From contig NZ_SSMQ01000006.1 in NCBI RefSeq assembly GCF_005144585.1, forward strand, positions 186,001 to 250,000: a DNA stretch of 64,000 nt, written 5' to 3'. Of this stretch, positions 38,121 through 42,062 are shown one piece after another. The first letter of the stretch is position 1; each line of letters opens with the position of its first letter. A model generated the notes under the pieces. It searched no databases. It saw only the letters and a program-made list of their open reading frames with translations, and was not told where the DNA came from. Source of the stretch: Polyangium fumosum. GTDB taxonomy: Bacteria > Myxococcota_A > Polyangia > Polyangiales > Polyangiaceae. The translations under genes were made by a program, and so were the position numbers.

Positions 38121-38163
38121 CCGTGCCGGGGCGTTGCCCCGGACCCCAGCAGGGGCGGACAGC
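38121..38163. repeat. Dispersed multi-hairpin repeat, copy R3, left half
   Basis: GCCGGGGCGTTGCCCCGG-type hairpin followed by ACCCCAGCAGGGG and CGGACAGC. The repeat stops exactly where the transposon begins. Joined to 42019 onward it restores an uninterrupted repeat whose closest match is R4. Confidence 0.85.
38156..38163. repeat. Target-site duplication, left copy
   Basis: CGGACAGC, identical to 42011-42018, directly outside the left terminal inverted repeat. Confidence 0.88.
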
Positions 38164-38175
38164 GGTGCTGATCAA
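38164..38175 (+). repeat. Terminal inverted repeat, left
   Basis: GGTGCTGATCAA. It continues into CTGATCAA-AC-TTGATCAG (38168-38185), an 8-bp palindrome that probably forms the transposase-binding region at this end. Confidence 0.88.
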
Positions 38176-38518
38176 ACTTGATCAGCCGGTTCGTCGCGAC
38201 GAACGCGCGGGCCATCCCGTCAAGTCCCCTCCGATGTCTGTCGAGGTGTGCGCATGTCCTTCCTGAACGGACGGCGCGGACCGGCATCGTCAGCCCTCGT
38301 GTATGTCACGCTTGACCCTGGAATCGACGCCCCGATCTCCGCGGGCAAACGGTCCTACATCGGACACTTAATGTCCGATGCCATTGCCGAATAACCACGA
38401 AAACCCGACGAATCGTGATAGATTCATCCCATCGAGTGAGCCGCTGAAACGGTCGAGCCGACGACGCGCATGGGGCGCGACGCGGCGCCCGTGGCGGCCC
38501 TTGCTGGGGTCTCGCGTC
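38176..38518. other. Left non-coding region of the transposon with two operator-like palindromes
   Basis: 343 bp before the transposase. It contains the perfect 16-bp palindrome GTTCGTCGCGACGAAC (38189-38204) and an inverted repeat CATCGGACA-CTTAA-TGTCCGATG (38358-38380). The second lies about 140 bp upstream of the chosen start and could be an operator for one of the element's HTH proteins or a hairpin limiting readthrough. No gene was recognised here. Confidence 0.6.
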
Positions 38519-39664
38519 GTGGCGAACGTCCTGCCCATCGAGAAGCGCACCGACGTGGTGAAGCACCTCGTAGAGGGCGCGAGCGTGCGCTCGACGTCGC
38601 GGCTCACGGACGTCTCCCTTCCGACCGTCCTCTCGACCCTGCTTCGCATGGGCGCGGGGTGCGACCACCTCCACAACCTGCTCGTGAGGGACCTCGACAT
38701 CCACGAGATCGAGTGCGACGAACTGCACGCGTACGTCCAGAAGCGCCAGAAGAACGTGACGCCCGAGGATCCGCCCGAGGTCGGGGAGAGCTACACGTAC
38801 CTCGCACTCGCCCGCACGAAGAAGCTCCTCGTGAGTTACCGCGTGGGGAAGCGCAACGAAGCGGACACGCAAGCGTTCGTTGCCGATCTCCGCGCTCGCC
38901 TCGTGACGATTCCGCAGATTTCGACGGACGGATGGCAGCCGTATCAGGTCGCCGTGGGGCAGAGCTTCGCGGGCGCGGTGGACCACGCCGTGATCCAGAA
39001 GAACTACACGAAGAAGCCTGGACGGCGCGAGCAAGGGTCGGATCGGTTCGACAAGTACGCGCCCGATGACGCACCCAAGTTCATCACGAAGAAGGTCGTG
39101 CACGGTGCACCGAACCTCGACCGCGCGAGCACGTCTCACGTCGAGCGGGCAAACCTCACGGTGCGCATGCACATTCGGCGCTTCATGCGGCGTGGCAACG
39201 CCTTCTCAAAGAAGATCGAGAACCACCGCGCGGCCATGAGCCTGCACGTGGCCTGGTATAATTTCGTTCGCGTGCACGAGTCCCTACGCGTGACGCCGGC
39301 CATGGAGGCGGGCATCACCGATCACGTGTGGTCCGTGCAGGAGCTTGTGGAGCGCGCCCTCGCCGCGGAGCCGTGCGCGCCCCCGGAGCCGAAGAAGCTC
39401 GCGCCGCCCGCTCCGGCCCCGGGCGTGACGACGGGTGCCGCCCGCGAACTGCCAAACGGCAAGGGTTGGCTCCGCGCCCTGCCCGGCGGGAAGGGCAAGC
39501 CCAGCGACACCCCACGGGCGCCTACGCCGCCCGCCGCGCCACCGGCGAGGGTCGGGACGGGGGAGGCTCCGCGCGAGGCCCTACCGCCACCGGGAACTCA
39601 ACTCGACCTGTTCGCGTGGCGTCCGAGGCCACGGCAACTCGGTCTGTTCGACCCGCCGGTGTAG
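38519..39664 (+). CDS. IS1-like DDE transposase with C-terminal clamp-binding motifs
   Basis: 381 residues. It follows the IS1-type transposase pattern: N-terminal MANVLPIEKRTDVVKHLVEG HTH, catalytic D67 (IECDELHAYV), D137 (QISTDGWQPY) and E209 (TSHVERANL), then NHRAAMSLHVAWYNFVRVHESLRVTPAMEAGITDHVW. The common family ends near residue 285. This protein has about 95 further residues, Pro-rich, ending with QLDLF (361-365) and QLGLF (373-377), two sliding-clamp-binding pentapeptides. The GTG at 38519 is chosen because homologous N-termini begin at this NVLPIEK segment; no strong Shine-Dalgarno is present. GTAGGTT-CGA-AACCTAC forms a hairpin over the stop codon. Confidence 0.88.
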   Translation: MANVLPIEKRTDVVKHLVEGASVRSTSRLTDVSLPTVLSTLLRMGAGCDHLHNLLVRDLDIHEIECDELHAYVQKRQKNVTPEDPPEVGESYTYLALARTKKLLVSYRVGKRNEADTQAFVADLRARLVTIPQISTDGWQPYQVAVGQSFAGAVDHAVIQKNYTKKPGRREQGSDRFDKYAPDDAPKFITKKVVHGAPNLDRASTSHVERANLTVRMHIRRFMRRGNAFSKKIENHRAAMSLHVAWYNFVRVHESLRVTPAMEAGITDHVWSVQELVERALAAEPCAPPEPKKLAPPAPAPGVTTGAARELPNGKGWLRALPGGKGKPSDTPRAPTPPAAPPARVGTGEAPREALPPPGTQLDLFAWRPRPRQLGLFDPPV

Positions 39665-39677
39665 GTTCGAAACCTAC
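39661..39677 (+). terminator. Inverted repeat over the transposase stop codon
   Basis: GTAGGTT-CGA-AACCTAC, 7-bp perfect arms with the TAG stop (39662-39664) inside the left arm. There is no T-run, so it may limit transcription or protect the 3' end rather than act as a classical terminator. Confidence 0.35.
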
Positions 39678-40013
39678 TTCGAACCACAAAACCCTTGCCG
39701 CACGTCAAGCGCCATGGCAAACGCTCGGACGGACTCGTCGCGCGTGGGCAGACACCTCGACCGGCCTACCCGATCAAGGTTTGAACTGTTCTAACCCACT
39801 GTGCGCACAGAGTGCAAACGAAATATGGCACTTGTACCATGGGGTACCAAAAGGAAAGGCGAGTAGTAGAGGCGTAACCACCCCGAACCACCCGCCTCTC
39901 ATCCGTTTAGGGATGCCGGATGAGGGTCGACTAGCACACGGGGCGATTCCGTCAATGGATTCGTGCGTCTTCTGCTGCCTCGCGTTCCTTCCGCTTCTGG
40001 AGGGCTACGCAAC
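39678..40013. other. Non-coding region inside the transposon
   Basis: 336 bp of visibly lower GC than the surroundings. It contains the hairpin CTCATCCG/CGGATGAG (39898-39905 with 39917-39924, 11-nt loop) and an A/G-rich stretch near 39850. No ORF with coding character, tRNA or known RNA was recognised. It may hold the promoter of the small gene that follows. Confidence 0.5.
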
Positions 40014-40283
40014 ATGTCGAAATCACACACGAAAACGCCCGTGGTGTCGGGCGTCATCTTCCGGTGGAGCTACCGGCACCACAGCACGGGGCAGACCGTG
40101 CGTCCGAAGCACGGGCGGCCCTTCCCGATCCCGGTCGGTCCTCGCCGCCGGTATCGCCCGCCGCCGCCCGAACAACTGGCCCTGTTCTCGCCCGAGGTGT
40201 TATTTCCACCGAAGGCACCCCGCCCGCCGCGCGCCCCTGGAAAGGTGCGCACGGCGCCGCGGGCGCGAGGACGGCGTAGGTAG
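40014..40283 (+). CDS. Small basic protein with a sliding-clamp-binding motif (transposon cargo)
   Basis: 89 residues, rich in Arg, Pro and His, predicted pI very high. The N-terminus KTPVVSGVIFRWSYRHHSTGQ could be a short beta-rich unit. The centre has QLALF (54-58), the pentapeptide that binds the bacterial beta sliding clamp. The C-terminal 25 residues are a Pro/Arg/Lys tail likely to bind DNA. No family was recognised. GGAGG about 10 bp before the ATG supports the start. Because the transposase carries the same kind of motif, a shared replication-linked role is suggested. Confidence 0.65.
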   Translation: MSKSHTKTPVVSGVIFRWSYRHHSTGQTVRPKHGRPFPIPVGPRRRYRPPPPEQLALFSPEVLFPPKAPRPPRAPGKVRTAPRARGRRR

Positions 40284-40341
40284 GGACTGACGAAAGGGGA
40301 CGACGGGCGCCGTGCTTTGGCTCACGGCGCCCGTCGCCTTT

Positions 40342-40938
40342 TCAGCGCTTGGCCTTGCGGCTCTTCCACGTGGGGCGTGGAGCCTGCTTCGGGGCGGGAG
40401 CCGCACCAACCGCACGAAGGGCGGCGCGGAGCTTCTGGACGTGGCCGTGATGCGTCGTGAGGCTGTGCCCCATGGCCCGCGCGGCGTCGGCCCCGATGAG
40501 CCCGCGGGCGGCGAGGAGCACAATGTAGGCGAGTTTCGGGCGGGACTTCATGACCCACGTGAGCAGGTCACGCGCCTCGATCGCCGGCATCGGATCCGGC
40601 GACACGATGTCAGGCGGCGATCGGATCGCGGACACGGGCGTCTCGTGCCGCGTCGAGCCGCGCCGCGCGTGGTTCATGGCGTGAAACCACGCGGTCTCCC
40701 GGGCGAACCCGCGGAGCGCCACCACGGGCGGCATACCCTCCGCACCGCGCACGCGCCCCTCGTGCAGGGCTTCCCACGTCGTCGCGATCGTCTCCTGCAC
40801 GAGGTCCGGAATGTACAGTTCGTCCACGCCGATCTTTCGCAAGTGATGGGTGAGCATCGAGTGAAGTCGAGTCACCTCGTGCGCGTCGGCGATGACGACC
40901 GGCGCACCACCGCCCGGGGGCCGGTGGTAGCTGCTCAC
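40342..40938 (-). CDS. Sigma-70/ECF-like protein (transposon cargo)
   Basis: 198 residues. Residues about 30-95 resemble sigma region 2 (DELYIPDLVQETIATTWEALHEGRV, FARETAWFHAMNHARR), and about 125-170 resemble region 4 (RPKLAYIVLLAARGLIGADAARAMGHSLTTHHGHVQKLRAAL). The tail is basic. It is the last gene of a four-gene operon. Its GTG overlaps the preceding stop (GTGA) and has a strong GGAGGTGA just upstream. It could direct transcription of the element or be a sigma-derived DNA-binding protein. No anti-sigma gene is adjacent unless one of the HTH-like proteins plays that part. Confidence 0.65.
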   Translation of the reverse strand: MSSYHRPPGGGAPVVIADAHEVTRLHSMLTHHLRKIGVDELYIPDLVQETIATTWEALHEGRVRGAEGMPPVVALRGFARETAWFHAMNHARRGSTRHETPVSAIRSPPDIVSPDPMPAIEARDLLTWVMKSRPKLAYIVLLAARGLIGADAARAMGHSLTTHHGHVQKLRAALRAVGAAPAPKQAPRPTWKSRKAKR

Positions 40939-41210
40939 GGCTCACCTCCGCGGACGAGGGTGTCCACGTCGACGTCGAGCGCGCGTGCGACGCCCGTGGC
41001 GAAGTGCAGCGTGCAGGCGAGCTGCCCGCGGAGAAACGCCTGCACATACATCGGCGCGTAGCCGATCACGTCGGCCATCTTCCACAACGTCCGCGCGGCG
41101 ACGACGGGAGCGAGCGCCTTGCGGACGCGATCCGCCTGCTCCGCGGAGAGCACCGCGGGCAGGCTGTCCGGGGTCTCGTCGGGGCCCTGGTCGTACTCGT
41201 GGTCGCTCAC
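40935..41210 (-). CDS. HTH-like small protein C (transposon cargo)
   Basis: 91 residues starting at GTG 41210, which overlaps the stop of the preceding gene (GTGA); GGGGGTG lies upstream. The core LWKMADVIGYAPMYVQAFLRGQLACTLHFATGVARALDVDVDTLVRG has the layout of a lambda-repressor/XRE-type HTH. It follows the same template as the two upstream genes, W..(V/L)A..(L/M)G and later ARA.(G/D)(L/V).V...L, so the three appear to be diverged paralogues. DNA binding is inferred. Confidence 0.65.
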   Translation of the reverse strand: MSDHEYDQGPDETPDSLPAVLSAEQADRVRKALAPVVAARTLWKMADVIGYAPMYVQAFLRGQLACTLHFATGVARALDVDVDTLVRGGEP

Positions 41211-41512
41211 GATGCACCCCCTTTTCGGCGCGGCGACGCGACAAGCGTGAGGGCGGGCGCCTTGCGGGGCGGCGCCTTCCCGGCGAGGGCATCGTCGACG
41301 GAGAGCCCCACGGCCCGCGCGATGCTCCGCGCAAGCGCCATGTTGCCCGGCTCCGTCCCGTCGAAGAAGCCGACGACGACGGCGCGCCGATAGCCGAGGG
41401 TGTGGGCCACGCGGACCCATGACCCCTGCTCCCGGTGAAGGTGGCGAAGCAGGGCGCGGAGGTTCGCCCGCTGGATCTCGATCAGATCCGAGTGGCGGAA
41501 GTCGGCGGCCAT
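41207..41512 (-). CDS. HTH-like small protein B (transposon cargo)
   Basis: 101 residues. The ATG at 41512 shares its A with the TGA of the preceding gene (TGATG) and is preceded by GAGGAGGG, so it is preferred to the ATG eight codons upstream. The core LRALLRHLHREQGSWVRVAHTLGYRRAVVVGFFDGTEPGNMALARSIARAVGLSVDDAL has an XRE-like helix pattern, followed by a basic tail. It is the second gene of the cargo operon and similar in plan to its neighbours A and C. Confidence 0.65.
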   Translation of the reverse strand: MAADFRHSDLIEIQRANLRALLRHLHREQGSWVRVAHTLGYRRAVVVGFFDGTEPGNMALARSIARAVGLSVDDALAGKAPPRKAPALTLVASPRRKGGAS

Positions 41513-41844
41513 CACGGCGCCCTCCTCGCCCCGCACGTCGGGCAGACGTCAGCCGAGGAGAGGGGCGCGAGGAGACGCTCGACGGACACGCCAGCGGCGC
41601 GCGCGGCGCGGAGGAGCATCCCCGGCGATCCGGGGGCGGCGCCGCGGGCGATCTTCTCGATCGTCTTGCGGTAGACGCCCATCACGGACGCGAGCACGTC
41701 CCATCCGCCGTAGGCTCGACGCAGGTTCCGGAGCGTCGCGCGGAGACGGGCGGCCTCGGCGGGAAGAAGCGAAAGGACGGGGAGCTTGCGGGGCGGACGT
41801 CCGCCCTCTTGGCCCCCGGACGGGGACCGGACTACGGTAAGCAT
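41512..41844 (-). CDS. HTH-like small protein A with C-terminal CPTCG (transposon cargo)
   Basis: 110 residues; ATG at 41844 with GAGG about 9 bp upstream. Core LRNLRRAYGGWDVLASVMGVYRKTIEKIARGAAPGSPGMLLRAARAAGVSVERLL is XRE-like. The C-terminus CPTCGARRAP contains a single CxxC knuckle that could bind zinc as a dimer. It is the first gene of the cargo operon. The 154 bp between it and the right terminal repeat must hold the operon promoter, close to the two subterminal TGATCAAG sites. Confidence 0.65.
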   Translation of the reverse strand: MLTVVRSPSGGQEGGRPPRKLPVLSLLPAEAARLRATLRNLRRAYGGWDVLASVMGVYRKTIEKIARGAAPGSPGMLLRAARAAGVSVERLLAPLSSADVCPTCGARRAP

Positions 41845-41970
41845 GGGTTGCGACCTCGTGGATTCGGGGTTGCGGCCAAGTCGCCTCGGGGGATTTCCAG
41901 GTCCCTCGGGGCGGCGTTTTTTCAGGCACGCCGAACCTACGCGTCGAGATCGCGGCCCGCTACGGCCGAT

Positions 41971-42010
41971 TGCCAAACTTGATCACTCGGGGCCAATCTT
42001 GATCAGCACC
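41971..42010 (-). repeat. Terminal inverted repeat, right, with subterminal direct repeats
   Basis: Read inward on the minus strand: GGTGCTGATCAAGATTGGC, then CCCGAG, then TGATCAAGTTTGGC. The 14-mers TGATCAAGATTGGC and TGATCAAGTTTGGC differ at one base, so this end has two direct transposase-site-like repeats. The left end has a palindromic pair instead. Confidence 0.8.
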
Positions 42011-42062
42011 CGGACAGCCCCCGCTGGGGCCTGGGGCAGCGCCCCGGCGCAACGGCCTGCCC
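42011..42062. repeat. Dispersed multi-hairpin repeat, copy R3, right half (with target duplication)
   Basis: Begins with the second copy of CGGACAGC (42011-42018), then CCCCGCTGGGGCC and CTGGGGCAGCGCCCC. This is the complementary half of the hairpin interrupted by the transposon. Confidence 0.85.

Follow-up and report, generated by a model that had tools for sequence, protein, structure and literature searches.

Four overlapping genes of an IS1-like element

In a 64,000-nucleotide stretch of Polyangium fumosum DNA, hereafter the window, four short genes (A to D) follow one another on the minus strand, and they raise the question of what three small helix-turn-helix (HTH) proteins and a sigma-like protein are doing together in one operon (Table 1). 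An initial annotation had described these genes as overlapping at TGATG, GTGA and GTGA joints preceded by Shine-Dalgarno sequences. Both descriptions hold: A and B overlap by 1 bp at TGATG, the B/C and C/D junctions overlap by 4 bp each at GTGA, and Shine-Dalgarno-like runs lie 5′ of B (aggagg), C (ggggg) and D (ggagg). The 1/4/4-bp pattern was kept in 11 of the 12 operons measured among the 18 four-gene operons identified, with starts chosen from a candidate list and L099 as the exception. Given these kept overlaps, the 18 operons, the five A-B-C-D copies of the host genome and median dN/dS values below 1 (type-I A, 0.31; B, 0.22; C, 0.35; group 1 D, 0.48), which indicate purifying selection, the cassette is not a chance arrangement.

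Table 1. Features of the window element and its flanks
Feature	Position	Strand	Description
IS1-like transposon	38164-42010		3847 bp; terminal inverted repeats GGTGCTGATCAA
Flanking repeat	38156-38163 and 42011-42018		Exact 8-bp repeat CGGACAGC; target duplication
T-side end	38164-38189	+	Inverted half-sites CTGATCAA-AC-TTGATCAG
A-side end	41974-42010	-	Two direct TGATCAA-type half-sites, 20 bp apart
Operator-like palindrome	38360-38378		TCGGACA-N5-TGTCCGA, upstream of T; window copy scores 10/12
Putative T promoter	38416-38424	+	Extended -10-like TGATAGATT; by-eye conservation upstream of T; putative role
T	38501-39664	+	IS1-type DDE transposase; C-terminal QLDLF and QLGLF
S	40014-40283	+	Small cargo ORF with QLALF; present in 4/23 T-D intervals
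Terminator-like hairpin	40303-40337		Between converging S and D; read from sequence
D	40342-40938	-	198 aa; predicted ECF-type sigma factor, regions 2 and 4 (family profile, model, Foldseek)
C	40935-41210	-	91 aa; predicted XRE-type HTH, paralogue of A and B
B	41207-41512	-	101 aa; predicted XRE-type HTH, paralogue of A
A	41512-41844	-	110 aa; predicted XRE-type HTH, C-terminal CPTCG (model pLDDT 81, Foldseek)
Leader hairpin P2	41880-41915	-	5′ of A
Putative A-operon promoter	41934-41939	-	-10-like TAGGTT; putative role

The description of A, B and C as diverged HTH paralogues was borne out by blastp (A versus B, 36% identity over 69 aa, E=8e-11; B versus C, 29% over 48 aa, E=1e-4; A versus C, 28% over 75 aa, E=0.01) as well as by profile and fold comparison. 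A phylogenetic tree of 45 HTH rows places A, A0 (present in elements without D), B and C each in a group of its own, with low support for the A group (45/56) and long branches that meet. The A model folds as an XRE domain, for which Foldseek gives C.BclI, C.AhdI, SinR and DdrO as near neighbors. Profile A3, containing rows of A, B and C, matched two designed repeat proteins first and XRE structures next (PbsX, 2.5e-5; CylR2, 1.7e-4). A is thus predicted to contain a helical domain of the Cro/CI type, the fold model being that of a single A chain and B and C being covered through the joint profile. Searches for B among plasmids and for A among phages gave no match.

The resemblance of D to sigma regions 2 and 4, also noted initially, is faint in the window protein and much clearer in its family. 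Window D gave matches below the cut-offs to Pfam Sigma70_r2 (E=0.0036) and the NCBIfam SigE family (E=1.9e-5). The profile built from the D family aligns over both domains with ECF sigma factors of solved structure, including CnrH (9.6e-16) and SigE, and the model of window D (pLDDT 76) retrieved ECF sigma factors in Foldseek; the first 15 had E values of 5e-4 to 9e-3, and whole-chain TM scores were low, at about 0.3. Of six D relatives scanned, L104, L122, L097 and L105 exceed a Pfam region 4 cut-off and L095 does not reach it; no sigma match was obtained for L103. All 26 rows of alignment A2, from which L010 was excluded since its frame runs on, share the glutamine of the DLVQET motif. Judged from profile and model, D is a predicted member of the ECF sigma factor family with regions 2 and 4 and without region 3. 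ECF sigma factors commonly, if not universally, have a cognate anti-sigma gene nearby; no anti-sigma match was found among the six window-element proteins scanned.

The operon is a passenger of transposase-bearing elements

All four genes lie within the transposon, as had been presumed, and its borders (38164-42010) are added here. The adjoining gene T, whose true start is probably near position 38519, scores above the cut-off of Pfam DDE_Tnp_IS1 (33.6 bits versus 24.1) and below that of NCBIfam IS1 (62 bits versus 100). IS1 relies on an InsA/InsB frameshift; T is a single open frame in the window, and several relatives have a frame change near residue 45. A target duplication flanks all 14 copies whose ends were set from the repeats, 8 bp long in every copy but L089 (9 bp). 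These copies were picked by eye from end-pattern matches once the duplications flanking the window element and L009 were known. The larger set of 32 elements also includes 18 from a search that required a duplication, so that only the other 14 test it. For L010, a T-side end was looked for and not found. The T C terminus (39600-39664) and S carry sequences that fit QLxLF, which PMC4549789 gives as the sliding-clamp motif of other transposases.

Among 97 genomes, 41 D matches were obtained, and 28 of them were viewed in context; the remaining 13 (E of 5e-7 or weaker) lie outside this count. In 24 of the 28, D shares an operon with HTH genes and adjoins a convergent T. The others are L094, which has T and is cut at the contig end, and L100 to L102, which are without T. 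The gene order, initially described as fixed, is real, but variants in content exist: 18 of the 24 operons are A-B-C-D, and the rest comprise A-C-D (L095 and L096), A-D (L104 and L122), A and D with another small gene between them (L105), and A with a longer B/C-like gene and D (L103). In Sorangium cellulosum, T accompanies A-D in L126 and L128, and in L127 A is next to a weak D match (3e-6). Elements without D carry A0, which in L107, L110, L111, L112 and one L087 element shares a 4-bp overlap with gene E (81 to 85 aa; no Pfam match for the one scanned). A first contig scan of named genomes for D relatives gave no match, and for 72 of 80 T relatives in named genomes (the best 80 of 491 confirmed), T is alone in the stretch examined.

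In the loci examined, the four genes appeared in this order only within transposons. L210 and L211 have a looser T-less trio, in which a C-like gene, an A-like gene (CPLC) and an ECF sigma gene lie on one strand without overlapping, and L213 has a C-like gene and an ECF gene on one strand, again without T. L211 also has, some 3 kb away, a gene whose match to HTH_17 stays under the threshold (26.1 bits; cut-off, 27).

A alleles are exchanged, and one A group changes fastest at the recognition helix

Comparison of the window with the four other copies in its own genome revealed 78 to 84% identity for B and 41 to 45% for A; D is 76% and 59% identical in two of these copies and 29 to 32% in the two others. 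A similar discrepancy separates L095 from L096, which have the same end type and are 95% identical in T, 98% in D and 94% in C, yet only 43% in A. The A of L096 is instead 91% identical to that of an L087 element having another transposase and other ends. Likewise, the cassettes of L010 and L098/L099 accompany transposases 48 to 57% identical to T and other A-side ends. A alleles are thus swapped independently, and the cassettes sit on transposons with different ends.

Rapid change within A is localized. Among type-I A sequences (n=11), pN is 0.41 and pS 0.40 in the recognition-helix window, versus pN of 0.03 to 0.07 in six windows away from the helix; a second variable stretch, at columns 17 to 40, has a pN of 0.24 to 0.27. 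At least three residues occur in 11 of 13 helix columns versus 10 of 98 others (Fisher P=5e-8, for a window chosen after the fact and related rows). In D group 2 (n=5), pN/pS is 0.6 to 1.0 in sigma region 4 and 0.04 to 0.30 through region 2. This contrast is absent from D group 1, to which window D belongs, and neither A0 nor B changes fastest in its recognition helix. A pN close to pS can also be caused by relaxed constraint. Copy-to-copy differences in the DNA-reading parts suggest a private switch for each copy.

A structured leader precedes A and a constant palindrome precedes T

Upstream of A, a -10-like TAnnnT sequence aligned in 33 of 37 leaders, and at least six of the seven outer pairs of hairpin P2 were kept in 32 of 37. 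The leader helices contain 17 cells changed on both sides, a number that none of 500 shuffles reached; sliding the partners by +1 left 12 such cells versus 17 and lowered pairing from 90% to 50%. As the helices were taken from column statistics, this covariation test leans toward them, and related rows inflate the count. RNAalifold predicted no pairs on the MAFFT alignment of the leaders, and Rfam gave only two matches over the region, both far below gathering scores. A short helix with one-sided changes only may cover the Shine-Dalgarno sequence. The leader hairpin was also considered as a DNA operator for A; since, by eye, both A0 helix types are accompanied by identical inner arms, an RNA structure fits better.

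Upstream of T, the palindrome AGGACA-N5-TGTCCT is present at 11 or 12 of 12 positions in 29 of 45 family-locus T genes, centered about 50 bp upstream of the T -10. At 11/12 or better it was found in 0 of 72 other T loci and 0 of 45 shuffles (L123 dropped from the family set and L141 from the others). The palindrome does not vary with the A allele, D or the terminal motif; it is present without an A match in the stretch at L114, L115 and L129 and absent from L131 and L134 though these bear A. Its sharing may reflect common descent within the Polyangiaceae.

Two candidate targets were rejected. Reading of the T or A promoter by D was not supported, as the A promoter has no D-type-specific columns and the T promoter no coherent motif, the columns that differ between D group 1 and group 2 elements being scattered. 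Moreover, both promoters look alike in elements without D. As for a target that changes along with the A helix, k-mers specific to two helix groups, where they could be placed, fell in coding sequence, and no non-coding motif following the A helix groups was found.

The operon as a probable control region of the transposon

We consider the cassette to be, with a probability of roughly 0.55, the transposon's own element-specific control region. A-B-C-D would be the control operon of IS1-like transposons in Polyangium and relatives, transcribed inward from the A-side end through the structured leader. A, B and C would bind DNA as XRE-type regulators, and D would act as an ECF sigma factor. Produced in coupled amounts, these proteins would jointly time transcription of the element's genes, the transposon itself being their target. 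As DNA-reading surfaces diverge and A alleles and D types are exchanged, co-resident transposons would come under separate control. This reading is favored by the terminal repeats, the duplications in 14 of 14 copies and the 24 of 28 D genes in an operon beside T, and further by the predicted folds, the kept overlaps, the A swap between L095 and L096, the fast A helix, region 4 of D group 2 and leader covariation. Counting against it are the lack of a D-type-specific promoter and of a motif tracking the A helix, the constant T palindrome, the look-alike promoters in elements without D, the missing contrast and the dN/dS of 0.48 in D group 1, a helix that is not the fastest part in A0 and B, the second variable A stretch, possible relaxed constraint where pN nears pS, and the C-like, A-like and ECF genes without T. 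The regulatory switch proposed initially is hence the best reading of the operon, put forward as probable rather than observed, with no D-type-specific promoter found; the four proteins may alternatively form one complex, as was also suggested initially. More tentatively, the operon might work as an immunity region, in which swappable repressors are combined with a private sigma factor and diversifying helices free each copy from the others, as in heteroimmune phages; we hold this version to be doubtful.

The same missing promoter can be read differently. D could turn the host RNA polymerase to host genes, with A to C restraining it, so that the transposon gains through its host. Such host-acting cargo would be in keeping with the variable cargo in the intervals beside T and with the T-less loci L210 and L211, as well as with the lack of a D-specific promoter inside the element. 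However, 24 of the 28 D matches seen in context adjoin T, and recognition parts that vary between copies are not what one fixed host target would be expected to produce, which makes this role unlikely.

Targets and ends of the elements bear on a further possibility. The L009 copy sits within a 21-bp tandem repeat, and overall 22 of 32 elements are inserted in tandem repeats (for instance L009:3263 and L096:4267), with periods mostly of 21, 42 to 43, 63 to 65 or 85 bp, versus 3 of 236 control points, which were random points of the same loci, some of the elements being neighbors. The element family therefore has a strong target preference for tandem repeats; the window insertion is outside this group. 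In L087, L091 and L096, two or three family elements are adjacent, and the three of L096 have a common target duplication, CTACGACG. The preference implies some target selection, and an A-type HTH gene accompanies T even where D is missing, so that A, B and C might be accessory transposition proteins, active in the end complex or in target selection, with D only expressing them. Yet the target bias is equally strong with A0 and no D (8/9 by reading), and across the 32 elements the terminal motif co-varies, by eye, with the recognition helix of T rather than with A to C: SLPTVL is paired with TGATCAA, SKPTIL with CGGTCAA, AKSTIL with TGGTCGCG and HRDT with GTCCTAA, among more pairs. This pairing may be a natural recognition code of the transposase, and the accessory role for A to C seems less probable still than action on the host.

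An addiction or defense module, hinted at by a weak match of A to the antitoxin HigA (E=0.0031; 17.3 bits versus a cut-off of 47.7), is very improbable, since no toxin-like match appeared among the six window proteins scanned and PADLOC had no match for any of seven proteins (those of the window element and one gene E).

Insertion sequences are usually regarded as no more than a transposase between two ends. The simple DDE transposon family described here has acquired an operon with as many as four regulators, among them a predicted sigma factor, apparently gathered by gene duplication and recruitment. With graded gene contents and many co-resident copies in one genus, the evolution of private and mutually exclusive regulation in transposons becomes testable.

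Comparison with known systems

We found no description of this cassette or of its IS1-like element in the open-licence full-text literature, which is weak evidence of novelty. IS1 ends begin with GGT and IS1 makes 8- to 9-bp target duplications; the element resembles it in its IS1-type DDE domain, GGT ends and 8-bp duplication. To our knowledge, classical IS1 has no passenger genes, whereas this element group carries several, and T stays below the NCBIfam IS1 cut-off. D resembles the ECF sigma factors CnrH, SigE, SigL and RpoE in having regions 2 and 4 only, a DxxQE-type motif and the predicted fold. It differs from them in its XRE neighbors, in the lack of an anti-sigma match in the window element and in the sub-cut-off Pfam score of window D. 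A is alike in predicted fold to XRE/Cro-CI regulators such as SinR, the C proteins of restriction-modification systems and DdrO, but the proteins here are short, stand three in tandem and include a CxxCG tail in A. The control genes of Tn916 include the sigma-like Orf7 and the repressor Orf9. Compared by description, Tn916 likewise combines a sigma-like protein with an HTH repressor on a mobile element, but that element is conjugative and bears an integrase.
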